Shown here: positions 10,525 through 62,919 of the stretch, in pieces
Layout of the letters: each line of letters opens with the position of its first letter
Position numbering within the stretch: position 1 is the first letter of the stretch
Assembly: GCF_000026045.1 (NCBI RefSeq)
Contig: NC_007426.1
Coordinates: 2,232,001-2,296,000, forward strand
DNA: 64,000 nt
Origin: Natronomonas pharaonis DSM 2160
GTDB lineage: Archaea > Halobacteriota > Halobacteria > Halobacteriales > Haloarculaceae
Reading direction: 5' to 3'
Notes under the pieces: model-generated
The model's database searches: none
Seen by the model: only the letters and a program-made list of their open reading frames with translations
Told to the model about the DNA's origin: nothing
Translations under genes and position numbers: made by a program

Positions 10525-10591
10525 GTGAACTGCCTCGGTGTCAAGCGGTTCGAGACGCCTTCGGCGTCTCGTCATCATCATTGAGCCGAGC
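10525..10591 (+). repeat. Degenerate copy of the dispersed cloverleaf element
   Basis: Reads GTGAACTGCCTCGGTGTCAA, then GCGGTTC and the arm GAGACGCC-TTC-GGCGTCTC, then GTCATC. The second arm is replaced by TGATGA-like sequence before GAGCCGAG. The order matches the first half of the full copy at 26499-26581. The rest of the 329-bp gap 10441-10769 holds no gene I can support. Confidence 0.55.
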
Positions 10592-12276: not shown

Positions 12277-15200
12277 TTAGTTGTCGAGTGCGTTGCGTCG
12301 GCGGGTCGCCAGCAGAGCTGCGCCGATAAGCGCGATGAGGGCGACGACAGCACCGAAGCCGGCCTGGTCGTCAGGCTCTTCCGGTGTGTCCTCAGGCGTC
12401 TCCTCAGGCGTCTCCTCAGGCGTCTCCGGTGTCTCTTCTGGTGTGTCCTCAGGCGTGTCTTCCGGCGTCTCTTCCGGTGTGTCCTCAGGCTCTTCGAATT
12501 CACCGAAGATACCGTTCTGCTGGACGACCGTGCTCCCACGGACGCGGAAGCCGACTCGTGCTTCATCGCCTTCCTCGCGGTCGCTCAGGTCGATCTCTGC
12601 CTCGAAGGCACCGTCGTCGTCGATGTCGACGCTGACGGTCTCGAGGAAGCTCTCGGTGTCACCACGCTGCTGGACGCGGACGGAAGCTTCCGAACCGGGT
12701 GCGACGTTTGTCGTCCCCGAGACGGTCGCTTCCTCGCCGGGTTCGATGGTGACGAGGTCGTCCTCGTCGACGTTGTCGAACTCGGCGTCGGCGTCAGCGA
12801 ACGTGAACGTGGCGCTGGTCACAGCGCCTTCACCTGCTTGGAAGTACGGGTAGGCAGCCTCGCCGGTGTCGCCGTCGTCAGCGCCACCCAGTGGGCCGTA
12901 CTCTTCAATATCGCCGATATCCTCGAAGCGGAACCGGTCATCGTCGTCGGTTTCGTATTCGAGTTCAACCTCGAACTCCGCACCGTCGCGGAGGTCGCGG
13001 TCGAATGGCTCGTCATCCGTGTCGACGATAACGTACATCTCGCCGGCCTCGTTGTCGGCGAGGATGAAGATTTCATCGTCACCGGACTCTTGGAGGTCGA
13101 GTTCGTTGGCGTCCTGGTTGCCAACCGGGTCGACATCCTCGAAGGTGAAGGAAATGCCTTCGCCTTCACGCTCAGTCAGCTCATAGAGCGTTTCGCTGTC
13201 GAAGCCCTCTTCCTCCTCGGGGATGACGGGGTCGAACTCGCCTTCGATGTCGACCATGTGGCCGTAGAGGCCGGAGGCTTCGATCTGTGCGACGAGGAGG
13301 TCATCAATCGCGACTTCGTCCGTCTCCGTCAGCGGACTGTCGTTGATGAGCTCTTCGATGGTGTCTTCCTCGTCGGCGTTCTCTTCAGGGCCCATCCAGA
13401 CCGTCGTGTCACCGAGGCCGGGGCGCTGGAGGTCAACCGTCGCGAATCCATCCTCGTCTTCGAGGTCGGATTCGCCGTCCTCAACGATGAACTCCTCGGA
13501 GCTGGTCGCTGCGAGGTCGTAGTCGGCCGGCTGGAGCGGTCGAACGAGCTGCTGAGTCGGGTGCTCGTCGCTGTCGTCCAGCAGGTCAAGGTCTTCGAGG
13601 TAGGTCTGGAAGTCAACGCGGTCACCATCATCGAGGTCACTGTCGTCGTAGAACTCGGGGATGGCATCCCAGCCGGCGTCATCGGCTATCTGCGAATAGG
13701 CACCATCTGGTACCTCGGTTTCACCATCAGGGTTGACGGGGTCCTCGTTTGCAATGCCGATGAGACTCTCCGCGATGTCATCCTCGGAGTGAATCATCTG
13801 GTCAGAGGGAGCGTTGGTTCCCATCATCCGTGTGTTCACCCAGAATTCGACGGTATCGTCATCCGTGTCGTCCTCGGCGTAGATGACGTCGACGAAGCCG
13901 GCGTCCTCGTCACCGAACTGCAGCAGTACCTCATCGGCGGTGCCGATGTCGGCCTCAACGTGGACGATGTCACCCGCAGATTGGGTGTAGACGTTCTCAT
14001 CGAAGTCGACAGTCACGTCCTCGTCGATGACTTCGATTTGGGCGTCGTCTGAGGCGTCGGCATCGTGGACATCAAAGTCGATAACGTAGATGAGTTCGTC
14101 GCGTTCGAAGAAGCTCAGGAATTCCTCTTGGTCCTGTATGTCGTGTGCGAGCGCTTTGCTGTCTGCGTCGTCGACCGCATCAGGGTCGTATAGTCGGATG
14201 TTCCACGGGCCAACGGCGTCACCGGATGGCTCAATCTCGTGGTTGGCATCGCCTTCAAGAGTCGTGAAGCCAGGGATATAGACTGCGTTATCGTCTGGGC
14301 CGAGATCGCCTGGCGGGCTCTCTTCGATTGGGTCCCACGCATTTCGCGCGATGACCTCATCGGCGCTATCGTCAATACCCGCAACATACTCTTGGAACTC
14401 CATTAGCGTCTCGCCACCGACGCCTTCATTTTCGAGTATCTGAGCGGCGTCGAACAGCTGTCCGTCGAGATAGGCTTCGTAGGGGCCGTCATATTCGTCG
14501 TCATCAAAGACCGTATAGGCGACAGTCGCCGAATCGAAGATGTTCTCGACATCACCCCAATCGCCCACACTCACGTTAACCGAGTAGCTTCCACGGTTTG
14601 ATTCCGCATCGAGATCGACAAGGCTCTGATCAAAGTCGTCGCTAATGAGCGGCTCTTCGTCCTCATCGAGCTCGGTGTCAAGTGTTTGGGTAGTCGTCTC
14701 AAAAGTTGCCTGCTGTGGATACGCTCCGCTGGATGGCAAGGGCGTACCACTAACGAAGTAGTCACCGTCATCGTAGTCCTCAGTGTCAATCTCAACGACT
14801 GCCGTTTGGGTCTCCGGTTCACCCGGTGCGATTGTAAATAACGTTCCAAAGTTTGGCTCATCGCCAATCGCGGAGGCAATGACGCTTGCCGGAAGCTCAG
14901 CAACATCAACCGCTTCCGGAGGAACGCCCTCTTCTTCTGCAACTGCTTGCTGTAGCTGGGCCTCTAGGTCGTCGTCAGCGAAAGAATCAACTGTCTCAAA
15001 CACTCCGTAAAGCCCTTGATCTTCAAATTCGCCGCCGATATACCCCTGCTTCAGCAAGAAATCAAGTGTCCCAGCCGAAAACTCATCAACAAAATCGTTG
15101 ATTGTATTATCGTCTTCAAAGAAGACCACATCGAGTTCTTCTTCGAATGAGCTCGAATCGACTGTTCCACTGTCAAAGCCATCAGCGCTCCGAAGTTGGT

Positions 15201-15411
15201 AATCGTCAAACTCCGGGTCAATGTCGTCGCCGAAGGCATATGTCGTCTGTCCCTGCCAGACAACACTTCCGTCAAAAGCGTATGTTATCTCAACGTCGCC
15301 TTGTTCCTGTGCCATCGCTGTACCGCCGAAAGCGACGCCTGCACCGATTACAGAGGTAACCATAACCAACGATAGAAAGATAGCACGTACACATAGCCGC
15401 TTGTTATTCAT
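12277..15411 (-). CDS. S-layer-type surface glycoprotein 1 with C-terminal anchor
   Basis: I chose the ATG at 15411 (MNNKRLCVRAIFLSLVMVTS…), which opens directly into a Sec signal peptide; the product is about 1044 aa. The mature part is very acidic and Thr/Ser-poor until a stalk of TPEE/TPED/TPEE repeats. The C-terminal sorting region is DDQAGFGAVVALIALIGAAL then RRR. This matches the PGF-CTERM arrangement removed by archaeosortase A, but with AGF where PGF is usual. It is closely related to the next gene, sharing NTRMMGT, ALIDDLLVAQIEASGLYG-like and DLRDGAEFEVELEYETDDDD blocks. Likely the cell-surface lattice or a major surface glycoprotein. Confidence 0.88.
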   Translation of the reverse strand: MNNKRLCVRAIFLSLVMVTSVIGAGVAFGGTAMAQEQGDVEITYAFDGSVVWQGQTTYAFGDDIDPEFDDYQLRSADGFDSGTVDSSSFEEELDVVFFEDDNTINDFVDEFSAGTLDFLLKQGYIGGEFEDQGLYGVFETVDSFADDDLEAQLQQAVAEEEGVPPEAVDVAELPASVIASAIGDEPNFGTLFTIAPGEPETQTAVVEIDTEDYDDGDYFVSGTPLPSSGAYPQQATFETTTQTLDTELDEDEEPLISDDFDQSLVDLDAESNRGSYSVNVSVGDWGDVENIFDSATVAYTVFDDDEYDGPYEAYLDGQLFDAAQILENEGVGGETLMEFQEYVAGIDDSADEVIARNAWDPIEESPPGDLGPDDNAVYIPGFTTLEGDANHEIEPSGDAVGPWNIRLYDPDAVDDADSKALAHDIQDQEEFLSFFERDELIYVIDFDVHDADASDDAQIEVIDEDVTVDFDENVYTQSAGDIVHVEADIGTADEVLLQFGDEDAGFVDVIYAEDDTDDDTVEFWVNTRMMGTNAPSDQMIHSEDDIAESLIGIANEDPVNPDGETEVPDGAYSQIADDAGWDAIPEFYDDSDLDDGDRVDFQTYLEDLDLLDDSDEHPTQQLVRPLQPADYDLAATSSEEFIVEDGESDLEDEDGFATVDLQRPGLGDTTVWMGPEENADEEDTIEELINDSPLTETDEVAIDDLLVAQIEASGLYGHMVDIEGEFDPVIPEEEEGFDSETLYELTEREGEGISFTFEDVDPVGNQDANELDLQESGDDEIFILADNEAGEMYVIVDTDDEPFDRDLRDGAEFEVELEYETDDDDRFRFEDIGDIEEYGPLGGADDGDTGEAAYPYFQAGEGAVTSATFTFADADAEFDNVDEDDLVTIEPGEEATVSGTTNVAPGSEASVRVQQRGDTESFLETVSVDIDDDGAFEAEIDLSDREEGDEARVGFRVRGSTVVQQNGIFGEFEEPEDTPEETPEDTPEDTPEETPETPEETPEETPEDTPEEPDDQAGFGAVVALIALIGAALLATRRRNALDN

Positions 15412-15704
15412 TCTTCCCTCCGAGAGCGTGCTTGATCGATGGTCGAACCTGTCTATCACCGGTAGTCGCCGCCGACAAATGACATCTTCTTATGTCTCCT
15501 GTCAGCCACCCCGGTACGGGACTCCAATGCATAGTGGATACCACACCCACACAATTGAAACTGTGATACAAATATTTTGCGCTCAGAACCGTCATCAACC
15601 GGTTTATTAGTTATTCAGATGACCTGATGAATGATTATAAACCCACTTTGGGTTTTATCAGGGATAATTGAGTGTATTGTTAGCAGATTGGGCGAGATGC
15701 CTCC

Positions 15705-16201: not shown

Positions 16202-19200
16202 TTAGTTGTCGAGTGCGTTGCGTCGGCGGGTCGCCAGCAGGGCTGCGCCGATGAGCGCGATGAGGGCGATGACAGCACCGAAGCCGGCCTGGTCATCGGG
16301 GTCCTCAGGCGTGTCCTCAGGCGTGTCCTCAGGCGTGTCCTCAGGCGTGTCCTCAGGCGTGTCCTCAGGCGTGTCCTCAGGCGTGTCCTCAGGCGTGTCC
16401 TCAGGCGTCTCTTCGGGTTCCTCTTCGACTTCACCGAAGATACCGTTCTGCTGGAGAACCGTGCTGCCACCAACGCGGAAGCTAAGGCGCGCTTGGTCGC
16501 CTTCCTCACGGTCGCTCAGGTCGATCTCTGCCTCGAAGCTACCGTCGTCTTCGATATCAACGTCGGCAGTCTCAAGGAAGCTTTCAGTGTCACCACGCTG
16601 CTGGATGCGGACAGCGGCGTCCGAGCCGGGTGCGACGTTCGTCGTACCCGAGATGGTTGCTTCCTCGCCAGGTTCGACAACAACGAGGCCGTCGTCAACG
16701 TTGTCGAACTCGGCGCTCGCGTCAGCGAACATGAACGTGGCCGACGTTATCGCGCTTTCACCCGCGTCGAAGTACGGGTAGGCAGCGTCTCCGTCACCGT
16801 CGCTACCGTCCTCAGCGCCATCGGGACCGTACTCTTCGATACCATCGCGGTCGAAGAAGTTGAATCGGTCATCGTCGTCGGTTTCGTATTCGAGTTCAAC
16901 CTCGAACTCCGCACCGTCGCGGAGGTCGCGGTCGAATGGCTCGTCGCTCGTATCGACGACAACGTACATCTCGCCGGCTTCGTTGTCGACGAGGATGAAG
17001 ACCTCATCGTCGTTTGCGTCTTCGAGGTCAAGGTTGTTGGCGTCCTGGTTGCCAATCGGGTCAACATCTTCGAAGGTGAACGAGATACCTTCACCTTCTC
17101 CGAAGTGGCTTTCGTCTTCAGCCAGCTCGTAGAGCGTTTCGCTATCGAAGCCATCCTCTTCGTCAGGGATGACGGGGTCGAAGTCGTCTTCGACGTCAAC
17201 CATCGCGCCGTAGAGGCCGGAGGCCTCTATCTGGGCAACGAGGAGGTCGTCAATTGCGACTTCGTCAGTCTGCGTCAGCGGACTGTCGTTGACAAGCTCT
17301 TCGATGGTTTCTTCTTCGTCAGCATTCTCTTCAGGACCGGTCCAGACGACTGTGTCGCCGAGCGTCGGTCGCTGGAGGTCAGCTGTTGCGAAGCCGTCTT
17401 CATCTTCGACTTCGGATTCGCCGTCCTCAGCGATGAACTCGGTCGAGCCAGTCGCAGCCATTTCGTAGTCAGTCGGCTGGAGCGGGCGGACGATCTGCGT
17501 GGTCGGGTGTTCATCGTCGTCGTCAATCAGGTCGAGTTCTTCGAGATACTCGGTGAAGCTGATCTGGTCGTTGTCGCCACCAAGCTCGAGGTCGTCGTCA
17601 TCGAAGAACTCCGGCTGCAGCTCCCAAGAGGAAACTGCGGCCGTGTAGTCGCCTGCTTCTGCGTCAGGGTCGACATCCTGAGTCTCACCGATGAGGCTCT
17701 CCGCGATGTCGTCATCGGAGTAGAGCATACGGTCAGAGTCGACACCAGTACCCATCATACGGGTGTTCATCCAGAATTCGACGCTGTCGCTGTCATCGTC
17801 ATCCTCGACGTAGATGATGTCGAGGAAGCCAGCGTCTTCGCTACCGAACTGAATGAGTGCCTCGTCGGTGTCTTCGAGGTCAGCTTCGAAGTGAACGACG
17901 TCACCTGCGGACTGCGTGTAGACACTCTGGCTGAAGTCAACGGAGACATCTTCTTCGTCGACGTTGGCTTCGGCTGTGTCTTCTGCCTCAGTGTCGTGGA
18001 CCTCGAACTCAAGCTCGTAGCTGTCTTCGTCAATGCCAAAGAAGCTCACGTCCTCATCAGTGTTGCCGGTGTTAACCAGCAGGACCTGTTCGTCGGCGTC
18101 GTCAACGTCCTCATCATAGAGGATGACGTTCCAGTCGCCGATAGCGAGGCCGGTGTTGCGGAGGTCGTAGTCACCGTCACCGTCGACGGTAGCCTCGTAG
18201 TCGCTGATATCGAGGAGGCCTTCCTCGTCAGCCTCTTCGAGTGCTTCGAACGGACTGTTGACGGTCTCGTCATCATCGCCACCGATGATGAGCTCTTCTG
18301 GGCTGTCGCCACGTTCGATGCCGGGGACTTCATCGATTCCCGTCCACGCGAAGATGTCGAACAGCTCCTCGTTGTCGAGGTCGCCGTCAGCACTCACGTT
18401 CATCGAGTAGCCGCTACGGGTAGAGTCCGTTTCGAGTTCGGCGAGACTGTCGTTCCAGTCATCGTTGAGAACCGGGAGGTCATCCTCGTCGAACTCAGCA
18501 TCGAGGTCCTGAATGGATATCTCGAAGGTGTCTTGTTCAGGCGGGTTGGTTGGCAGATCGCCGCCACGGAGGAAGTGGTCGTCAGCGTCGAGGTCGTCAC
18601 TGTCGATAACAACTATCGGGCCTTCACCGTAACCCGCCTCAGTAACGAGTTCTTGGGCACCGTCCGAGAGGTCCTCGAACTCTTCGATGTCGTCGTCATC
18701 GATTTCGGTTGCGAAGGAGCTGGACTCAACTGCGTCGTCTTCGAAGTCATCGACGGAGCGGACCTGGTAGTCGCCACCCTCGACGATTTCCTCACCGAAG
18801 GCGAAGACATCCTGGCCCTGGAATGCAACGGAGCCCGGGAACTCGTAGGTGAGCTCAGCAGGCTCGCCCGGTTCGGGGGCGCCGTTGTCGCCGTTGTCGC
18901 CGTTGTCAGGCACCGTGACCGTCTCGGTCACGTCAATCTCTTCGCCACCAATGCCGACGTTAAAGAAATTAAAGTCGACATCCGCACCGGGAGTCAGGTC
19001 AGCTTCGCCGGTCAGAGAGATGGTGACCTCGGAGGGATTGTTATCGAAGTTGATCAGGCTGCCAAAATCGCTGGCATCAACGTCGAAGTCATCCTCTTCG
19101 AGTTCGAATTCGTTGCCGTCAACCTCAACTGTGGCACCGATGCCAGTCAGTTCGTCGGACGACAACGTGGCGTCAATCTCGACGTTATCTGGGTCGTCAA

Positions 19201-19351
19201 TGTCTATAAACTCTACATCTACATCCACTTGGTCCTCTTGAGCCGCTGCCGAGCCGGCAAAGGCTGCGCCGGCAGCGACCATAGAGAGCACCATTATCGC
19301 AGCAAGGAATAGTGCGCGGCCTTGCTCGCGATAAGTCGTATTTCCTGTCAT
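16202..19351 (-). CDS. S-layer-type surface glycoprotein 2 with TPED stalk and C-terminal anchor
   Basis: The ATG at 19351 gives MTGNTTYREQGRALFLAAIM, the signal peptide typical of haloarchaeal major surface glycoproteins (cleavage near SAAA-QED), and a product of about 1049 aa. Domain order parallels the neighbour: an N-terminal region, several acidic beta domains, EFWMNTRMMGT, TDYEMAATGSTEFI, a stalk of about nine TPED repeats, then DDQAGFGAVIALIALIGA and a RRRNALDN tail. The stalk is coded by a 12-bp tandem repeat. As in the paralogue, AGF replaces the PGF consensus. A TATA-like AAACATTTAATGG around 19452-19464 would give a roughly 75-90-nt leader. It is a substrate candidate for the glycosylation genes at 38-54 kb. 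Confidence 0.9.
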   Translation of the reverse strand: MTGNTTYREQGRALFLAAIMVLSMVAAGAAFAGSAAAQEDQVDVDVEFIDIDDPDNVEIDATLSSDELTGIGATVEVDGNEFELEEDDFDVDASDFGSLINFDNNPSEVTISLTGEADLTPGADVDFNFFNVGIGGEEIDVTETVTVPDNGDNGDNGAPEPGEPAELTYEFPGSVAFQGQDVFAFGEEIVEGGDYQVRSVDDFEDDAVESSSFATEIDDDDIEEFEDLSDGAQELVTEAGYGEGPIVVIDSDDLDADDHFLRGGDLPTNPPEQDTFEISIQDLDAEFDEDDLPVLNDDWNDSLAELETDSTRSGYSMNVSADGDLDNEELFDIFAWTGIDEVPGIERGDSPEELIIGGDDDETVNSPFEALEEADEEGLLDISDYEATVDGDGDYDLRNTGLAIGDWNVILYDEDVDDADEQVLLVNTGNTDEDVSFFGIDEDSYELEFEVHDTEAEDTAEANVDEEDVSVDFSQSVYTQSAGDVVHFEADLEDTDEALIQFGSEDAGFLDIIYVEDDDDSDSVEFWMNTRMMGTGVDSDRMLYSDDDIAESLIGETQDVDPDAEAGDYTAAVSSWELQPEFFDDDDLELGGDNDQISFTEYLEELDLIDDDDEHPTTQIVRPLQPTDYEMAATGSTEFIAEDGESEVEDEDGFATADLQRPTLGDTVVWTGPEENADEEETIEELVNDSPLTQTDEVAIDDLLVAQIEASGLYGAMVDVEDDFDPVIPDEEDGFDSETLYELAEDESHFGEGEGISFTFEDVDPIGNQDANNLDLEDANDDEVFILVDNEAGEMYVVVDTSDEPFDRDLRDGAEFEVELEYETDDDDRFNFFDRDGIEEYGPDGAEDGSDGDGDAAYPYFDAGESAITSATFMFADASAEFDNVDDGLVVVEPGEEATISGTTNVAPGSDAAVRIQQRGDTESFLETADVDIEDDGSFEAEIDLSDREEGDQARLSFRVGGSTVLQQNGIFGEVEEEPEETPEDTPEDTPEDTPEDTPEDTPEDTPEDTPEDTPEDPDDQAGFGAVIALIALIGAALLATRRRNALDN
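16301..16408. repeat. 12-bp tandem repeat coding the TPED stalk
   Basis: Nine units of GTCCTCAGGCGT run without interruption. On the coding strand each unit encodes four residues, making (TPED)n next to the membrane anchor. The paralogue at 12370-12490 has fewer and more varied units, so stalk length has changed since duplication. Such arrays can change length by slippage. Confidence 0.95.
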
Positions 19352-19530
19352 AGTTATTTTTGAATCCTCGGATGCCGCCCGGTCACGTCGGAACTCCGAC
19401 GGTCGCGGCGCGGTTCCATGGGTAGGGGCGTCTGATGTTACCCGAGCCTCCATTAAATGTTTTGTGGTGCTGTATGGGACAGTTCCCCACGAGAAGGCGT
19501 CTATCCAGCAATTTCGGATAAATAGTCTAT

Positions 19531-19829: not shown

Positions 19830-22800
19830 TTATTCTTGCTGTTCTTGCCAGGCGTCGATGACTTCGAAGATACCGCCTTCGAGCTCAACGTCGTCTGCGA
19901 ATGCGCCTTCGTCATTCTGGAAGTCATCGATGATGCCGAAGATGTCCTGGATCTGGCCATCTTCGTCAGCGTAGAACTCGACAACCGTGTCGGGTTCAGG
20001 CTCACCAGCATCTTCGACGAACGTCAGCGTGGCGCTGAGCTCATCGTCTTCGGTTGCGAAGACGTAGTCAATGCTGTCACCAGTTTCGAGGACTTCCTCG
20101 GCGAGGCCGAGGTCGACATCGAATTCAACCGTTTCGGTGGCCTCTGCGTCAAGCTCGACGGTAGTCTCGCCGAGATCGAGTTCACCGAGTTCTTCATCGG
20201 TGGCTGTCAGGGAGACCTCAGTCTCACCAGCCTCGTCGTTGTTGTTCGTAACGTCGACGGAGGCAGTGACATCCTGATCGAATTCGACCTCAACGTCACC
20301 GGGCTGGATGTTGCTCAGCGTGAAGCCTTCTGCGGGTTCGTCATCTTCGAGGGTGACGGTCAGCGTGGCAGTCTCCGAATCGATGTCAGTGGAGATACCG
20401 TGCTCGTAATCGCCTTCCTCGACATCAGGCACGGTCACGTCGAAGGAGACCTCTTGGGTTTCACCGGGGCCAAGAGTGAGCTCCTGCGAGTCGACATCCT
20501 GACTGTCGAAGAAGAACGTTACGTCGCCAGTGTCTTCCTCGCCAGCAGTGTTGGCGACGTTGGCCGTCACTTCGATCTCGTCACCGGGTGACGCCTCAGC
20601 CGGAGCCGCGAGGTCGGAGACCTCGAAGCCTTCCGGCGCGAGGACATCCTCGATGACGATGTCGGCGTTCGTCGTGCCACCGGGGATCTCGGTTAGCTGG
20701 GCGAAGCCAGTACCTTCGTTACCTTCTTCGTCAACGAAGGTAGCCTCGACCGTGTAGTCCTGCCCGGAGCGCACGCCGTCACTACCGGTGAAGGAGAACG
20801 AACCTCCCGGACCGGCAGTCGTCTCCGCCACCTGCTCGAGTTCGCCGGTTTCGTTCTCGACGAAGAGCGTCACTTCGGCACCCGGCAGGTTGTTACTGGG
20901 TGTCTCGTCGTCGACAACGTCGCCGGTGATCTGTGCGCCTTGGAAGACGTCAATGGTTGCCTGCTCGGAGCCTTCAGTCTGGAAGACCTCTCCAGCACTC
21001 TCAGCGGACGCACTGATGTTCGTCTCGCCAACGGTTGGCGAGTCACCAGTGAACGTCGTGGTGGCAACGCCCTCATCGTCGGTAGTCACCGTCTCGTCGG
21101 CGAGGTCACCGACGATCTGGTCGGTGGCTTCGAGGTCGATCTCGAGGCCTTCGGCCGCTTCAGGTTCGTCGTCAACGCCGATCTCTTCCTGTGTGGCCTC
21201 TACTTCAACGCTAACAGGCTCATCAACAGGAACTTCCGTGTACTTGTCACCGTTGTCGACAGTCACGTCAAGGTTGTACGTGAACTCATCGACGGGTTCG
21301 AATTCCTGAGCGCTCAGGTCGACGTTCATCTGGTCGCCCTGGGCGTTCGCGGAGACGTTCACGACGTCGTAGCCACGGAAGTTCGCGAAGCCGTAGGCCG
21401 TGGATGCGTCGTCAGTATCGTCACCGCCAGCGATCACGGCGTAGGTCCGTGGGTCGTCGACGTCGACGGGCAGGTTCAGCAGTTCGAAGTCACCCTGGTC
21501 GTTGGTGACGTCGGTGGGGATCGCACGCTCGTCATCGAAGCGATTCTCGGTTGCTTCGTAGGTCAGGTCCTCAGACGCATCGAACACGTTCTCAGTGTCC
21601 TGCTGGAAGTCCTCTTCACCATCCAGATCCTCGTTGACCGTGATGTTCTGGAAGGTCGAGACCGACGCTTCGACGGATTCGTTCTCGATGGTTACCTTCT
21701 GCTGGACCTGGTAGTCCTCAGCAGGTGCGAGGAACGACAGGTCGAAGGACGGCTCATCGCCGGTTGCGGAGTTGATTTCGATACTCCGGTCGGTTTCGTT
21801 CTGGATGACCTCGACGTTCTCTGGCGTGTGGGTCAGGTAGTCCGACCGTGGATCCTGCACGACAGCATCGCCATCGTCAGTGAAGGTGACGACACGGAAC
21901 TGGTCGCCCACGTCGAGGCGGACGTCACCGAGACCCGTTTCCTCACCGTCGACATCACTGTAGTCCAGGTTGATGTCTGCATCTTCAACCTCACCGAAGT
22001 CATCAACGTTGATGTCCTCGAGGAGCGTCGACAGCTCGATGCTGTTCAGCTCTTCGACGCCATCGTTGGTGGCGTTAACGCGAACGGTGTTCTCAAGGAC
22101 CCGATCGAACTCGACAGCGTGGACTTCCACGCCGGACTCAGCAGCGATGTTGGACTGAGTGCCCACATCGATGTCCTCATCGATCACGTCGGCCTCACCG
22201 GAGATCGTACCGGTGTCGCCGATGTCCGGGACGAATTCGAGTTCCGCTTCTTCGGTAATGACCTCGTCGTCACCCTCAGTCGCTTCGAAGGTGAGTTCAG
22301 TTACTTCGACGATATCCTCGATGTCATCGAAGCCGTTGTCGGGGTCGACCTCGAAGGTGAAGTTGACTGTACCGTCGTCACCAGTCTCTGCGGTCGTTGG
22401 GCTGCCTGGTTCGATGGTGTTGACTTCAGGAATATCGCCCTCATTGTCCTCGAAGGTCACTTCAACGGGCGTGTTATCGAGCGGCAGGTCATCTCCCTCC
22501 GGGAAGTCGTCAGTGGTCACCGTGACCGTTGCCTCGATCTCGTCATCGATGCTGACGGTCTGGCCCGGATCGAATTCGACGTCGATGTCGTCAGGCGTGA
22601 TGATTCGCTGAAGCGATGGGTTCACCGTCTCTTCGACGTTGTTCTCGTCGAGAGAGGCACTACGGGTCGATGCTTCGAACCCTTCTCGTTCTGCTTTGAC
22701 AACGTATTCGACGCCGTTAGCAGCACCGACTGCAAGACCGTCGTCGATTCCGTCGACACTACCGTCGAAGCGGAAGAAGTCATCATTGCCAGTGTTTCCT

Positions 22801-23801
22801 GTAGCAATGAGGTTACCAGATGCTTCACTACCCTTGTAGAGGAGCACATCAACTCCCTCAACGGGGTTGTTTGCTGTATCCGAAGTGACAACTTCGACAG
22901 CACCGCCATCATCAGTACCGATTGTTAGCGTTCGGGCGTTACTTTCGCCACCATCGCCGCTGTCTGCATCCTGAACAGTAGCTTGGAGGTCATCTGCCTC
23001 GGCAGCACCAGCAGTTGCGTCAGTGTCATCTTCCGTATTGAATGTTTCACTGACAGTCTCATTTTCACCTGCTGAGAGTGCATCAATGTTGTCGAAGGTT
23101 ATTGACGCATTGAGGTCGTACTCGTTATCCGCATTGTCATTGTCGACCTCGATGTCTTCAACGTCGATATCGGATTCACCAACGTTTTCGACAGTTACGT
23201 CAACGCCAACATCAGCACCGAACGGTGCTGCGCTTGTGACGCCGAGAGTGACATCGATTGATGACTCGATGTCGAGGAGGTTAGTTCCAGTTTCGGTCTG
23301 CTGGGAGGAATCATTACCAGACTGAGAGTCACTGAAACCAACGGTAACATTAACGTCAGATTCCTCGGTCTCAGGGTTCACAACACCATCATAAGTGATG
23401 TTGATGGAATCTCCATCACTCAGTCCAGTCTCACCTGTCTGAATGAAGAAATCCTCACCGCCAGCATCACTTACATTCTGAGTGATATTCTCGCCACCGA
23501 CATCCACATTCACGTTAGAAACGTCAGTGGTGTTGAAAGCGTCACCATCAGAGAGGTCAATCTCCAGCTCTTCGAGAGCACTGCTTGTCCCATTGGTAAC
23601 TGAAATATCTATACTATGCGATGCAACATCGTTAGTGGTATTCACCGTGAGATCAGCATCGTCGACGGTGAACTCTGCATCACTATCTGCGGCCGCCGCC
23701 GGTGCCGCAAACGCTGCGGACATGGCGACCATCCACATAACCATAATCGCGGCCAGGAACACGGCACGGACTTTCCCTTTTGTGTTTACGTCCCCTGACA
23801 T
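19830..23801 (-). CDS. Large secreted adhesin-like surface protein with C-terminal dockerin-like module
   Basis: A 1323-aa protein. The signal peptide MSGDVNTKGKVRAVFLAAIM… is very like those of the S-layer genes and is cleaved after AAAA. The body is a chain of Ig/CARDB-like and carboxypeptidase-regulatory-like beta domains: GVVNPETEESDVNVTVGFS, PVEGVDVLLYKGSEASGNL, LPGAEVTLFVENETGEL, and two CARDB-like units with PAEASPGDEIEVTANVANTA and DVTNNNDEAGETEVSL. It lacks the archaeosortase anchor. Instead it ends in a roughly 46-residue module (VVEFYADEDGQIQDIFGIID … GGIFEVIDAW) also found twice in the protease downstream. It may bind the cell surface through that module, which is inference. Confidence 0.85.
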   Translation of the reverse strand: MSGDVNTKGKVRAVFLAAIMVMWMVAMSAAFAAPAAAADSDAEFTVDDADLTVNTTNDVASHSIDISVTNGTSSALEELEIDLSDGDAFNTTDVSNVNVDVGGENITQNVSDAGGEDFFIQTGETGLSDGDSINITYDGVVNPETEESDVNVTVGFSDSQSGNDSSQQTETGTNLLDIESSIDVTLGVTSAAPFGADVGVDVTVENVGESDIDVEDIEVDNDNADNEYDLNASITFDNIDALSAGENETVSETFNTEDDTDATAGAAEADDLQATVQDADSGDGGESNARTLTIGTDDGGAVEVVTSDTANNPVEGVDVLLYKGSEASGNLIATGNTGNDDFFRFDGSVDGIDDGLAVGAANGVEYVVKAEREGFEASTRSASLDENNVEETVNPSLQRIITPDDIDVEFDPGQTVSIDDEIEATVTVTTDDFPEGDDLPLDNTPVEVTFEDNEGDIPEVNTIEPGSPTTAETGDDGTVNFTFEVDPDNGFDDIEDIVEVTELTFEATEGDDEVITEEAELEFVPDIGDTGTISGEADVIDEDIDVGTQSNIAAESGVEVHAVEFDRVLENTVRVNATNDGVEELNSIELSTLLEDINVDDFGEVEDADINLDYSDVDGEETGLGDVRLDVGDQFRVVTFTDDGDAVVQDPRSDYLTHTPENVEVIQNETDRSIEINSATGDEPSFDLSFLAPAEDYQVQQKVTIENESVEASVSTFQNITVNEDLDGEEDFQQDTENVFDASEDLTYEATENRFDDERAIPTDVTNDQGDFELLNLPVDVDDPRTYAVIAGGDDTDDASTAYGFANFRGYDVVNVSANAQGDQMNVDLSAQEFEPVDEFTYNLDVTVDNGDKYTEVPVDEPVSVEVEATQEEIGVDDEPEAAEGLEIDLEATDQIVGDLADETVTTDDEGVATTTFTGDSPTVGETNISASAESAGEVFQTEGSEQATIDVFQGAQITGDVVDDETPSNNLPGAEVTLFVENETGELEQVAETTAGPGGSFSFTGSDGVRSGQDYTVEATFVDEEGNEGTGFAQLTEIPGGTTNADIVIEDVLAPEGFEVSDLAAPAEASPGDEIEVTANVANTAGEEDTGDVTFFFDSQDVDSQELTLGPGETQEVSFDVTVPDVEEGDYEHGISTDIDSETATLTVTLEDDEPAEGFTLSNIQPGDVEVEFDQDVTASVDVTNNNDEAGETEVSLTATDEELGELDLGETTVELDAEATETVEFDVDLGLAEEVLETGDSIDYVFATEDDELSATLTFVEDAGEPEPDTVVEFYADEDGQIQDIFGIIDDFQNDEGAFADDVELEGGIFEVIDAWQEQQE

Positions 23802-24109: not shown

Positions 24110-24365
24110 GTTTATACGCTGAGCAGGCGCAATACCACGGCCTTCAGGCCGTGGATACGCGCCGTCACTTAATGAGTAACGGCTGGTTGGCACAGCCCGG
24201 AGTCTTCCTGTTCGACCGCGAGAGCGGACGGTTCACACCAAGAAAACAGGGAGTCTGCAAACCGTAATATCCCAACGCTGAGCAAATCGGAGATTTGCGA
24301 TGTACGCGAATCTTCGATTCGCTTGACTCGGGATTCCTCCGCCTTCAGGCGGAGGAGGATGTCAA
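24110..24365 (+). mobile_element. Short non-autonomous IS200/IS605-type element
   Basis: The left part (CGCTGAGCAGGCGCAATACC, 24118-24137) shares GAGCAGGCGCAATA with 26464-26477 beside the complete element. A perfect 8-bp stem hairpin CCACGGCC-TTCA-GGCCGTGG follows (24135-24154). A double hairpin lies at 24278-24330, and the right end GGATTCCTCCGCCTTCAGGC…GGATGTCAA closes it at 24365. The same right-end pattern is at 54329-54364 and, in the other orientation, at 55580-55614. No transposase frame is inside. The rest of the 23802-24713 gap has GC-rich decayed sequence (24480-24690) with no gene I can support. Confidence 0.55.
24278..24330 (-). repeat. Double-hairpin element, copy near 24.3 kb
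   Basis: Two hairpins, GCAAATC-GGA-GATTTGC (24282-24298) and GCGAATC-TTC-GATTCGC (24306-24322), are joined by GATGTAC and flanked by CTGA and TTGACT. The same loops (GGA and TTC) and linker pattern occur in the 51-bp insertion in tnpA, where the stem bases differ but remain paired. Confidence 0.8.
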
Positions 24366-26498: not shown

Positions 26499-26581
26499 GT
26501 GAACCGCCTCGGGGTCAAGTGGTTCGAGACGCAAAGCGTCTCGTCATCACGGAAGACTCCGTCTTCCGTCCGACCCCGAGG
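26499..26581 (+). repeat. Cloverleaf element, full copy beside the IS605-type element
   Basis: The outer stem CCTCGGGGTC (26507-26516) pairs with GACCCCGAGG (26572-26581). Inside are two arms: GAGACGC-AAA-GCGTCTC (26526-26542) and ACGGAAGAC-TCC-GTCTTCCGT (26549-26569), separated by GTCATC. GTGAACCG precedes it. Copies with the same plan are at 48628-48713 and 62831-62919 (both on the minus strand). Confidence 0.85.
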
Positions 26582-26654
26582 CTTCCCGTCTCTACAGAGA
26601 AAGCAGGCAGAGTGCCTCGGGGCTTGACCCCGAGGGTGAATGCCGTAAGCTCCA

Positions 26655-27119
26655 TTAGACGTGTTCAGTGCGTTCGATATACTGCTCAATCGTCTGGCTA
26701 GATACTTCACCAGCCGTTCCGATGTAGTATGATTCTTCCCAGAATCCGCCACCCCACAAGTAGTTTTCCAAGAGGTGTTCGTGTTGCTGCCACATCTCTC
26801 TGGCCGTGATGCTCTTGATTTTTCGTGCAATCTTACTTGGAGAATATTTTGGATGTGCTGAAAGAAACAAGTGAACGTGGTCTGGCGAGATATGCAATGA
26901 GGGTATTTCATAATTGTACTCGCCGCAAACGTCTTTGAACGATGCTTCTAACGACTGTTCTATCTCATCAAGCACTGAGTGACGGTACTGAGCGGGATCG
27001 GAGATCCCGCGAGGTACGCAAATCTTCGATTTGCTTGACTTCGGACACCACACGAAGTGGTAATTGATGTTGTAAACCGTGTGATTTGACCGTGTTTCGC
27101 CCATATCGGCTAGAGTCAT
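26655..27119 (-). CDS. tnpA: IS200/IS605 Y1 transposase TnpA with in-frame palindromic insertion
   Basis: The single-strand HUH transposase of the IS200/IS605 family nicks and joins element ends. The HUH motif is HVH at residues 81-83 (ISPDHVHLFLS), and the catalytic Tyr is probably Tyr147 (TIEQYIERT); YHFVWCPK opens the fold. Family members continue CPKYRHSVL, but here 17 residues (28-44) separate CPK from YRHSVLDEIE. The 51 extra bases (26988-27038) are a double hairpin of the dispersed family. The frame is intact, so the protein might still fold with a loop insertion, or be inactive. It is divergent from the RHH gene and tnpB. Confidence 0.9.
   Translation of the reverse strand: MTLADMGETRSNHTVYNINYHFVWCPKSSKSKICVPRGISDPAQYRHSVLDEIEQSLEASFKDVCGEYNYEIPSLHISPDHVHLFLSAHPKYSPSKIARKIKSITAREMWQQHEHLLENYLWGGGFWEESYYIGTAGEVSSQTIEQYIERTEHV
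26988..27038 (-). repeat. 51-bp double-hairpin insertion inside tnpA
   Basis: Hairpins GCGGGATC-GGA-GATCCCGC and GCAAATC-TTC-GATTTGC are joined by GAGGTAC and flanked by CTGA and TTGA. Removing it restores the family sequence CPK-YRH, so it is an insertion of exactly 17 codons without stop codons. Confidence 0.85.
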
Positions 27120-27163: not shown

Positions 27164-27298
27164 ATGACCAAACGCCTCACCGTAGACTTCGAGGACGATT
27201 TGTACAAGGAGTTCTCGAAGAAATGTATCGACGTTGAACGTCCGAAATCAGAAGTCGTGCGTGAACTTGTCCAAGACTGGGTAAACGACCAAGAATGA
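27164..27298 (+). CDS. Ribbon-helix-helix (CopG/Arc type) small regulator inside the IS element
   Basis: A 44-codon gene, MTKRLTVDFEDDLYKEFSKK…, has the RHH plan: a beta strand (KRLTVDFE), helix 1 (DDLYKEFSKKCID), a turn with RPKS, and helix 2 (EVVRELVQDWVND). Its stop overlaps the tnpB start (ATGA), so the two are translationally coupled. RHH proteins usually dimerise, bind palindromic operators and regulate their own operon. Here it could hold down tnpB and tnpA from the divergent promoter (inference). It is too short for many gene finders. Confidence 0.75.
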   Translation: MTKRLTVDFEDDLYKEFSKKCIDVERPKSEVVRELVQDWVNDQE

Positions 27299-28599
27299 CG
27301 CAGACACAGGCTCTCACCAAGACGCTCGTGTTTCCGCTTGACGTGCAGAGTGGCAACGAGAGCCTGCTTCACGACGCCCGCTTGGAGTGTCGCCGCGTGT
27401 TCAACGAGGTGCTACGTCTCAACTACGACGGGTGGAACTGGGACAAGATAGAAAACGTTGTTGAGCAGAACGCTGACCTCGTGCAAAACACCGCACAGCG
27501 TATCATCGACAAAGCCTTTGACGCACTCGATAACTACTACGACTACGACGACTGGGGACGACCGTGGTACAAACACGAGACGTTCCCACTGCGGATGAAC
27601 TACGGCGAAGGCTACAACCTCTTTCTCGAAGACGAAACGGTACGGTTCCGCATTTCAGCAAAGCCGTACAATCACGTCAAAGGCGAGCTTCGCGGTACGC
27701 AAGACCAATTCGACCTGCTCAGACAAGCAATCGAAGATGATGACTGGCACGTTGGCACTGCTGAGGCGCTTGTCCGACACGGACGCGAAGAGTTGCACGC
27801 CACCGTCACGAACGAAACTGCCGAAGTCGGTGCGAAAACAACGACAGAAACGGTCACCGGCGTCGATATTAACGAAGACTGTGTTGCGCTAGCGGCACTG
27901 ACTGAACACGGTATCGAAGATTCCGTCGTCATTGACTACCCAGAAATCAAGGAACAACGCCACCGGTACTTCACGATGCGGAAACGCATGCAGGAAGCCG
28001 GACAGACCGGGTTTAACGATGTGTTCCGCGACAAGGAACAACAGTTCGTTCACGACCAGCTACACACGGTGTCACGGCGCGTAGTCGAGTGGATTCAACG
28101 GTTCGACAGTCCTGTAATTGTCTTTGAAGACCTCAAGGACATGAGAGACGACATTGAGTACGGGACGCGAATGAACCGGCGACTCCATTCACTACCGTTC
28201 GCCAAACTGCGGGACTTCATCACGTACAAGGCCGCATGGCGCGGCATTCCGTCAGATGACGTTGACCCGGAGTACACCAGCCAACAGTGTCCGGTCTGTG
28301 GACACACAGAACGGGCGAACCGTCACAAGAAACGGTTCAAGTGCTGTGAGTGCGAGCATCAAGACCACGCTGACCGTGGTGCTGGTATCAGTGTCGCACA
28401 GAAATGGTTGAGAACACAAGAGGATAGAAATGTGCCTGCTCTCAACACACTCCCGCAGGTGCGGAAATGGGAGTTGCGACGGCAGGCATCGGGGCCTGTG
28501 GACGGCCCGACCGTGACCCACCACACCGAGAGAGGCCACCAGACCGATGGTGTGTCGGGTGTGTCCGACCAATCCACGGGAAGAAGCTCCGGGGCTTGA
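27295..28599 (+). CDS. tnpB: RNA-guided nuclease TnpB of IS200/IS605-type element
   Basis: 434 aa. The RuvC-like catalytic residues are all present: Asp191 in TVTGVDINEDC, Glu278 in PVIVFEDLKDM, Asp360 in HQDHADRGAG. The zinc finger has Cys332, Cys335, Cys350 and Cys353 (CPVCGHTERANRHKKRFKCC then EC). The N-terminal region RLECRRVFNEVLRLNYDGWN is the usual helical start. Known TnpB proteins cut DNA using an omega RNA whose scaffold overlaps the 3' end of the gene and whose guide lies past the right end. Here that would start near 28610. Full-length and probably active by residues seen. Confidence 0.92.
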   Translation: MTQTQALTKTLVFPLDVQSGNESLLHDARLECRRVFNEVLRLNYDGWNWDKIENVVEQNADLVQNTAQRIIDKAFDALDNYYDYDDWGRPWYKHETFPLRMNYGEGYNLFLEDETVRFRISAKPYNHVKGELRGTQDQFDLLRQAIEDDDWHVGTAEALVRHGREELHATVTNETAEVGAKTTTETVTGVDINEDCVALAALTEHGIEDSVVIDYPEIKEQRHRYFTMRKRMQEAGQTGFNDVFRDKEQQFVHDQLHTVSRRVVEWIQRFDSPVIVFEDLKDMRDDIEYGTRMNRRLHSLPFAKLRDFITYKAAWRGIPSDDVDPEYTSQQCPVCGHTERANRHKKRFKCCECEHQDHADRGAGISVAQKWLRTQEDRNVPALNTLPQVRKWELRRQASGPVDGPTVTHHTERGHQTDGVSGVSDQSTGRSSGA

Positions 28600-28618
28600 C
28601 CCCGGAGCAGTTCACGCC
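28583..28618 (+). other. Right-end hairpin and probable omega-RNA scaffold end
   Basis: Perfect hairpin CTCCGGGG-CTT-GACCCCGGAG just after the TnpB codons SSGA, with the gene stop inside its loop region, then CAGTTCAC. By analogy to studied IS605 elements this is both the TnpA-recognised terminal structure and the 3' part of the omega RNA. The guide would be copied from sequence beyond it. Confidence 0.5.
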
Positions 28619-48627: not shown

Positions 48628-48713
48628 GTGCCTCGGGGTCGTACGGAAGACGAAGTCTTCCGTGATGACGAGACGCTCTGCGTCTCGAACCACTTGACCC
48701 CGGAGCGGTTCAC
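48628..48713 (-). repeat. Cloverleaf element at the tumA stop codon
   Basis: Outer stem CCTCGGGGTC (48631-48640) pairs with GACCCCGGAG (48696-48705). Arms: ACGGAAGAC-GAA-GTCTTCCGT and GAGACGC-TCT-GCGTCTC, with GATGAC between. CGGTTCAC follows, and the tumA stop codon (TCA on this strand, 48710-48712) lies in it. To the left, CTACAGAAAACGCAGGCAGA resembles 26594-26612. Confidence 0.85.
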
Positions 48714-49475: not shown

Positions 49476-49618
49476 CGGCTGTCTGACTAATAGGTGTTGT
49501 GGCTATCGAACAACACAGCACCAACCGAAGCATCGAGGGGCAGAGACTCATTTATTTCACAGCATACGATGCCCTCAAAGACCTAAAAAGTCGCGAGCAA
49601 TGGAAACAGGGCGAAACC

Positions 49619-49665
49619 ACGGGACGCCTAGCGTCTCGAACCACTTGCTCCCGAGACAGTTCACT
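49619..49665 (-). repeat. Partial cloverleaf element at the aglF stop codon
   Basis: GGGACGC-CTA-GCGTCTC arm, then GAACCACTTGCTCCCGAGAC and AGTTCAC. The stop codon of the nucleotidyltransferase (49661-49663, TCA on this strand) lies within TTCAC, as at tumA. The other arm and the left outer stem are lost. Confidence 0.65.
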
Positions 49666-62830: not shown

Positions 62831-62919
62831 AGTGCCTCGGGGTCGTACGGAAGACGAAGTCTTCCGTGATGACGAGACGCCTTCGGCGTCTCGAACCACT
62901 TGCCCCCGAGGCGGGTCAC
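62831..62919 (-). repeat. Cloverleaf element upstream of the KaiC-like gene
   Basis: Outer stem CCTCGGGGTC (62835-62844) with GCCCCCGAGG (62902-62911). Arms ACGGAAGAC-GAA-GTCTTCCGT and GAGACGCC-TTC-GGCGTCTC, linker GATGAC, flank CGGGTCAC. It is 65 bp before the KaiC-like start, next to a gene remnant. Confidence 0.85.

Follow-up and report, generated by a model that had tools for sequence, protein, structure and literature searches.

Introduction

In Haloquadratum walsbyi, the small mobile repeats known as SMR-A (HqIRS42/43/55) are multi-copy, transposase-free sequences of ~110 bp that have inverted terminal repeats and produce no target duplication (PMC3119063). They insert into the near-terminal palindromes of IS605-type transposons and of PATEs, which they were proposed to inactivate, and their mobilisation was called "enigmatic" (PMC3119063). 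REPINs, or REP doublets, are pairs of hairpins mobilised by RAYT Y1 transposases (PMC3116915). The CGTC-tagged REPs, which include Rickettsia RPE-4 and RPE-6, have 4-5-nt loops and stems with A/T pairs at their foot, and the survey of these repeats lists bacteria only (PMC3733652). Rickettsia RPEs are palindromic repeats of ~150 bp that are found in frame in many unrelated ORFs (PMC10969869), while mitochondrial double-hairpin or repetitive hairpin elements and the byps of Magnusiomyces are organellar (PMC2800124, PMC5009743).

We analysed a 64,000-nt stretch of the Natronomonas pharaonis DSM 2160 genome (the window), in which an IS200/IS605 transposase gene is interrupted by a 51-nt double hairpin. 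A first-pass annotation had interpreted this segment as a coding-tolerant mobile palindrome of a dispersed family, comparable in spirit to the Rickettsia RPEs. We consider it likely that the segment is instead one copy of a non-autonomous haloarchaeal mobile double hairpin that parasitises IS200/IS605 elements.

A double hairpin lies within the tnpA gene of the window

The insert and its host element comprise the following features, given in window positions:

26655..27119, minus strand: tnpA, IS200/IS605 Y1 (HUH) transposase gene, 154 aa, insert-bearing
27295..28599, plus strand: tnpB of the same divergent IS200/IS605 element, an ORF with a TnpB/OrfB-type Zn motif as read from its sequence
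26615..26635, tnpA side of the IS: near-terminal palindrome CCTCGGGG-CTTGA-CCCCGAGG, insert-free (empty site)
28586..28608, tnpB side of the IS: near-terminal palindrome GCTCCGGGG-CTTGA-CCCCGGAGC, insert-free (empty site)
26988..27038, minus strand: the B-type insert of tnpA, 51 nt with two hairpins, matching the R2 model at 78.6 bits (E 4e-15)
26992..27010, plus strand: insert hairpin 1, GCGGGATC-GGA-GATCCCGC, perfect 8 bp stem, triloop, C-G closing pair
27018..27034, plus strand: insert hairpin 2, GCAAATC-TTC-GATTTGC, perfect 7 bp stem, triloop, C-G closing pair

The host is assigned to IS200/IS605 by its Y1 HUH transposase (the tnpA product matches Pfam Y1_Tnp with E 1e-34), its tnpB and its subterminal palindromes, all of which are present. 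Two Rfam families of tnpB-overlapping sense RNA / omega-RNA, sot2652 (28430-28567) and sot0042 (24162-24356), match the window with scores below the gathering threshold. This tnpA is single-copy in its 2.75 Mb genome, where the next best TnpA is only 45% identical, so the genome offers no second copy with an empty site for comparison. Elsewhere in the window, three large adjoining genes (12277-15459, 16202-19453 and 19830-23801) have a surface-layer-type look, with secreted, acidic products; the proteins of the first two are related, and in these Thr/Pro/Glu repeats precede a C-terminal hydrophobic segment.

On the tnpA strand, the sequence across the insert reads TGTCCGAAG^TCAAGCAAATCGAAGATTTGCGTACCTCGCGGGATCTCCGATCCCGCTCAG^TACCGTCAC (carets mark insert ends here and junctions below), which adds 17 residues (SSKSKICVPRGISDPAQ) between CPK and YRH. 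The first-pass annotation had placed 51 extra bases at 26988-27038 between these triplets, in frame and without a stop codon. The coordinates proved exact and the frame open (51 nt, 17 aa); the boundary could shift by up to 3 nt, AGT being present at each end. The annotation was also right that the catalytic residues are intact, as both the HVH motif and the C-terminal Tyr are present, and that CPKYRH is the usual block of the family. The block is near-invariant among 28 homologues, it is unbroken in the solved relatives ISDra2 TnpA and 2ec2, and most homologues lack the insert, with ~22 of 106 tnpAs bearing one at the CPK^YRH site. Empty, insert-free sites reading CPKYRH occur in the closest homologues, locus L012 and L007 of Halonotius pteroides (the latter with 92% DNA identity).

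The two hairpins of the insert are joined by 7 nt, and the whole folds as DNA at -14.2 kcal/mol (z -5.2 versus shuffles). The window holds 31 hairpins with stems of at least 8 bp, compared with 2-8 in shuffled sequences.

The insert belongs to a family of haloarchaeal double hairpins

From the tnpA and window copies we built two covariance models, R1 for an A type and R2 for a B type. Members have two stems of 7-9 bp, typically capped by C-(GNA/TNC)-G triloops, with an overall length of 45-62 nt. The A type (~54 nt) has the layout TCGTTCGA-hairpin-TCGTGATCACGA-hairpin-TCGAACGA; its ends are TCGTT/AACGA, extended in many copies to TCGTTCGA/TCGAACGA. The B type (49-51 nt), to which the window insert belongs, has the layout CTGAGC-hairpin-GCGAGGTACGC-hairpin-GCTTGA, and its terminal inverted repeats are weak.

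The stems covary. There were 26 double-changed cells in the A type versus 9.2 in shuffles, and 15 versus 5.4 in the B type (0/500 shuffles in each case), while slid controls gave at most 3 for either type. Distinct copies supplied 270 apices, of which 252 are triloops; a C-G pair closes 247 of these 252, and the loop sequence is GNA or TNC in 196 of the 252. Triloops of the d(GCGAAGC) type, to which C-GNA-G belongs, are extraordinarily stable in DNA, which suggests that it is the DNA hairpins that matter. Loops vary freely and stems do not: in the inserts at tnpA site 2 (defined below), loops are 37% identical, versus 97% for the rest of the insert and 88% for the exons, and loops often appear as reverse complements. 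In the sister tnpAs L050 and L065, both triloops of the site 2 insert are reverse-complemented while stems and spacer are the same, and these sequences suggest that hairpin tips may invert independently.

The family is spread across the haloarchaea. R1 matches occur in 48 of 59 haloarchaeal genomes versus 2 of 101 genomes from the phylum's other orders. The two latter genomes (G219 and G235) belong to one genus, their matches have E values of about 1e-7 to 4e-8, and they possibly reflect horizontal transfer or chance. One genome, G010, has 69 R1 matches counted on both strands, or ~35 copies. The N. pharaonis genome has nine strong R1 copies and two R2 copies; a fixed-spacer pattern search of the same genome returned just the two B copies and one chance-like match with 3 mismatches. 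The B insert is also present in three haloarchaeal plasmid records, and a DNA search of phages for the element returned nothing relevant. The element itself matches no Rfam family: sot0042 and sot2652 represent the host RNA, in which the element appears as an insertion.

Copies occupy palindromes and a few fixed coding sites in IS200/IS605 elements

Four further copies lie in the window:

26520..26573, minus strand: A-type copy of 54 nt, filling an IS200/605 end-palindrome loop that adjoins the insert-bearing IS
48639..48692, plus strand: A-type copy, likewise filling an IS200/605 end-palindrome loop, here of a terminal-only remnant with no adjoining tnp genes
62843..62898, plus strand: A-type copy of 56 nt, also filling an IS200/605 end-palindrome loop
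24278..24326, minus strand: the other B-type copy, of 49 nt, in a hairpin loop of the sot0042 (omega-RNA) homologue

Eight of the nine strong A copies of the genome split the near-terminal palindrome of an IS200/605 element between its GGGG and its CTTGA, CCTCGGGG^CTTGACCCCGAGG, and end palindromes are likewise occupied at many related loci. The B copy at 24278-24326 fills the loop of the UCCCAA/UCGGGA hairpin of the sot0042 homologue. Here the Rfam consensus represents the empty site, with 5 nt where the window copy has 52; since the 49-nt double hairpin replaces the consensus loop, the guide-RNA scaffold is itself insert-bearing. Two half elements in the window (10546-10589 and 49591-49643), each a single A-type hairpin before an IS200/605 end sequence, are possibly deletion remnants.

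Within tnpA, inserts were found at four sites: HFVW^CPK (45 nt), CPK^YRH (51 nt), ILS^LHI (54 nt) and HPK^HAP (54 nt), hereafter sites numbered as in the turnover analysis below. One further coding site lies in the tail of tnpB. In L137 and L141, from a set spanning several genera, an A-type element (1501-1554) interrupts the C-terminal tail at RKV^RRQ, and a TGA stops the ORF a few codons into the element. No insertion into a host gene was recognised, tnpA and tnpB alone being convincing when inspected by eye; the candidate host-gene insertions were mostly spurious, lying in long empty-site ORFs of GC-rich DNA.

Outside IS elements, 59 distinct sites define a symmetric target, C-G-(A/G)-N-G^C-N-(C/T)-C-G, with G at -1 in 46/59 and C at +1 in 50/59, and with G/C at -4/+4 and C/G at -5/+5. 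Over all sites, the G^C junction accounts for 79 of 116, against a background of 8%. At 31% of sites an inverted repeat of 5 bp or longer bridges the junction, versus 13% of control G^C positions. There is no consistent target duplication: short repeats occur at tnpA sites 1 and 3 only (AGT and TGTC), with none at sites 2 and 4 or in IS ends.

The two types also insert into each other, A inside B in L205 and L218 and B inside A in L121 and L123. In the latter pair, a B element at 1501-1551 of the locus splits the A-type spacer as TGA^TGA. The A/B composite is present in several copies in genome G047 and may itself be mobile.

Inserts come and go faster than tnpA evolves

Sites 1 to 4 are filled in 22, 16, 6 and 3 of 106 distinct tnpAs. 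On a tnpA tree (396 columns, quick search), the filled and empty states require at least 16, 12, 5 and 3 changes, respectively, compared with means of 20.4, 15.3, 5.9 and 3.0 when labels are shuffled. Because the observed values are near those for random labels, the turnover of inserts is much more rapid than the evolution of tnpA. Recombination between tnpA copies of different IS elements may inflate the tree counts, and gain and loss are indistinguishable on the tree; clean filled/empty pairs are independent of it. Exact pairs with exon identities of 98.5-99.2% are L022/L054, L022/L185, L051/L174 and L211/L221. Among these, L022 has no insert, L054 is filled at sites 2 and 4, and L185 at site 3, with flanks unchanged.

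An identical 51-mer is shared by five tnpAs, those of the window, L008, L057, L186 and L198, although the exons of the other four are only 72-73% identical to those of the window gene. Similarly, L205 and L218, from one genome and with exons 53% identical, share one nested insert of 109 nt in the same position. Together with the recurrent sites and exact pairs, the shared 51-mer upholds the first-pass view of the segment as a mobile palindrome belonging to a dispersed family. We regard recurrent exact insertion or loss as established, along with the family, its structure and covariation, its target consensus and its nesting.

Most inserts break the transposase gene that carries them

Among 38 insert-bearing tnpAs, 25 are broken by their own insert and 13 are open. 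The breaks are stops (TAG, TGA or TAA), as in L051 of Haloarcula amylolytica, or frameshifts, with insert lengths of 49, 53, 55 and 109 nt. Non-coding copies provide an expectation for openness: 549 of 726 random frames are stop-free, and 78 of 121 copies have a length that is a multiple of three. Since such copies are thus open about half the time, the open frame in the window is unremarkable, a roughly one-in-two accident. The coding tolerance advanced by the first-pass annotation is not supported by these counts; the element is not shaped for coding. The likeness to Rickettsia RPEs fails as well, in that recognised coding insertions are confined to tnpA and the tnpB tail. At site 2, a stop-making T outnumbers G by 10 to 6, and selection for openness at this site was discarded as an explanation since the T-to-G change also lengthens the stem.

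An AlphaFold2 model of the window protein alone, from a shallow alignment of 28 sequences, gives residues 29-45 as a loop of low confidence, with pLDDT <50, and retains the core fold. By the same model, a translated insert at site 2 would interrupt beta strand 71-77, which the protein would probably not tolerate.

The broken genes otherwise look healthy. A lesion elsewhere was found in 1 of 25 insert-broken tnpAs versus 18 of 68 insert-free ones (Fisher p 0.019). This test is weakened by shared ancestry and by a possible detection bias, since a gene with two breaks is less easily retrieved; L223, for example, has a frameshift elsewhere and was left out because its score did not reach the cut. 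The pN/pS ratio is 0.15 in insert-broken and 0.14 in insert-free tnpAs. Such a lack of decay would not be expected of a simple killer insertion unless the insertions were very young, which is the simplest reading.

A mobile double hairpin and alternative explanations

We propose that the element moves as structured DNA and inserts exactly at the centre of the palindromic target CG(A/G)NG^CN(C/T)CG, preferring inverted repeats. IS200/IS605 elements would be its hot spots, through their end-palindrome loops, omega-RNA hairpins, the four places in tnpA and the one in tnpB. Mobilisation would probably depend on an enzyme supplied in trans, and the direction of change would be mainly gain. In the window tnpA, the insert would be open by accident and would add a flexible loop of 17 residues after strand 1 and before helix A, which may affect TnpA. 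Because the same insertion elsewhere truncates or shifts the gene, the element would parasitise IS200/605 and effectively act as its brake. Against this explanation, the search for an enzyme that mobilises the element identified none, and a comparison by eye found no obvious dependence of copy number on this TnpA subfamily.

Two alternatives concern how the inserts reached their sites. The insertions could be old, passed down together with the IS and then lost many times over, or could have spread among tnpA copies by gene conversion. We think this unlikely: stem sequences are indeed site-specific, and the tree retains a weak phylogenetic signal (changes slightly below the shuffled means), but the stems and spacers of the inserts are 95-97% identical where exon third positions are 60-75% identical, filled and empty sisters have unchanged flanks, and identical 51-mers span 27% exon divergence. 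Rather improbable, in our judgement, is that the IS200/605 TnpA itself mobilises the double hairpins as RAYTs do REPINs. The Y1 family acts on single-stranded hairpins, as established for ISHp608 and ISDra2, and by analogy it might act on a pair that looks like a REP doublet and is associated with IS200/605 ends, tnpA and tnpB. However, the element ends (TCGT..ACGA and CTGA..TTGA) and symmetric target are unlike IS ends (..TTCAC), there is no conserved GTAG-like tag, copies are as many in genomes without a close TnpA, and insertion into tnpA would harm the element's own mobiliser.

The other two concern what becomes of the insert in the gene. That it is an RPE-like, coding-tolerant palindrome, in frame because its peptide is harmless or useful, agrees with the open window copy, with the 13 of 38 open tnpAs and with the loop modelled by AlphaFold2 on a retained core fold. 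We nonetheless hold it to be quite improbable, given the 25 of 38 broken genes where about half of random copies should be open, the excess of T over G at site 2 (with G explicable by stem lengthening) and the lack of recognised host-gene insertions. Very doubtful is translational bypass or RNA-level removal, by which the ribosome would skip the insert, or it would be excised from the mRNA, and insert-free TnpA would be made. The insert in T4 gene 60 is skipped by ribosomes in this way. Such a process would account for the 25 tnpAs with stop or frameshift inserts whose exons are otherwise intact and whose pN/pS is unrelaxed, and for inserts at site 2, where a translated insert should, on the modelled structure, be lethal because it splits a beta strand. 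The size of 45-54 nt, the strong hairpins and the exact restoration of frame on removal are byp-like, and in haloarchaea omega-RNAs are circularised with no BHB motif being recognised (PMC12558985). Yet neither shared codons, nor a BHB motif, nor host-gene copies provide positive evidence: no take-off or landing codons are common to the four sites, no BHB motif was seen by eye at the site 1 junctions, and the element is unseen in host genes, although these should retain it too if it did no harm. Moreover, rapid turnover makes recent insertion a sufficient explanation, and the lesion count is open to the bias described above, low-scoring copies such as L223 having been dropped. If bypass or removal were true, the insert would be an archaeal equivalent of a byp or a new kind of miniature intron, and tnpAs with stops or frameshifts would still yield normal transposase.

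Relation to known elements

Returning to the mobile, parasitic double hairpin that we favour, the SMR-A repeats are its closest known counterparts, compared by description, with the double hairpins a smaller, haloarchaea-wide variant. Both are multi-copy and transposase-free, occur in IS near-terminal palindromes (8/9 strong A copies) and lack target duplication. SMR-A repeats are ~110 bp long, belong to one genus and are described mainly outside the transposase ORF, whereas the double hairpins are 45-62 nt long and order-wide; the latter also have triloops, compensatory drift, fixed tnpA/tnpB sites and mutual nesting, as set against SMR-A by its description. With REPINs they share the arrangement of two adjacent hairpins as one small mobile unit and a link to the IS200/605 superfamily. 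Unlike REPINs, they have no GTAG tag at the hairpin foot (their ends being TCGT..ACGA or CTGA..TTGA), are shorter, and have a symmetric palindromic target and coding insertions in IS genes. A dedicated RAYT for the double hairpins was not found; an IS200/605 tnpA is often near copies, but copies also abound in genomes without a close TnpA.

CGTC REPs resemble the double hairpins in their 8-9 bp stems, frequent dimers, lack of a known dedicated transposase and some intragenic copies. Their tails are CCA, where the A-type double hairpin ends in AACCA or AACGA, and they differ from the double hairpins, which have 3-nt loops (252/270) and, in the A type, C-G at the stem foot. Rickettsia RPEs share the insertion of a palindromic repeat in frame into an ORF, but two thirds of double-hairpin coding insertions break the frame, and host ORFs were not seen among them. 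The mitochondrial elements are likewise tiny mobile double hairpins, sometimes in genes, and byps are similar in size; ribosomes bypass byps, whereas for the double hairpins bypass is putative.

The double hairpins are thus best classified as a haloarchaeal small mobile repeat preying on IS200/IS605 elements. Where small mobile repeats had been described in one Haloquadratum study, the double hairpins form a family that spans the order, whose target, structure and turnover are defined, and which attacks even the gene for the transposase, at fixed nucleotides. With the filled/empty pairs and the stop-bearing tnpAs, two matters become directly testable: what moves the repeat, and whether archaeal genes can be expressed through such an insert.
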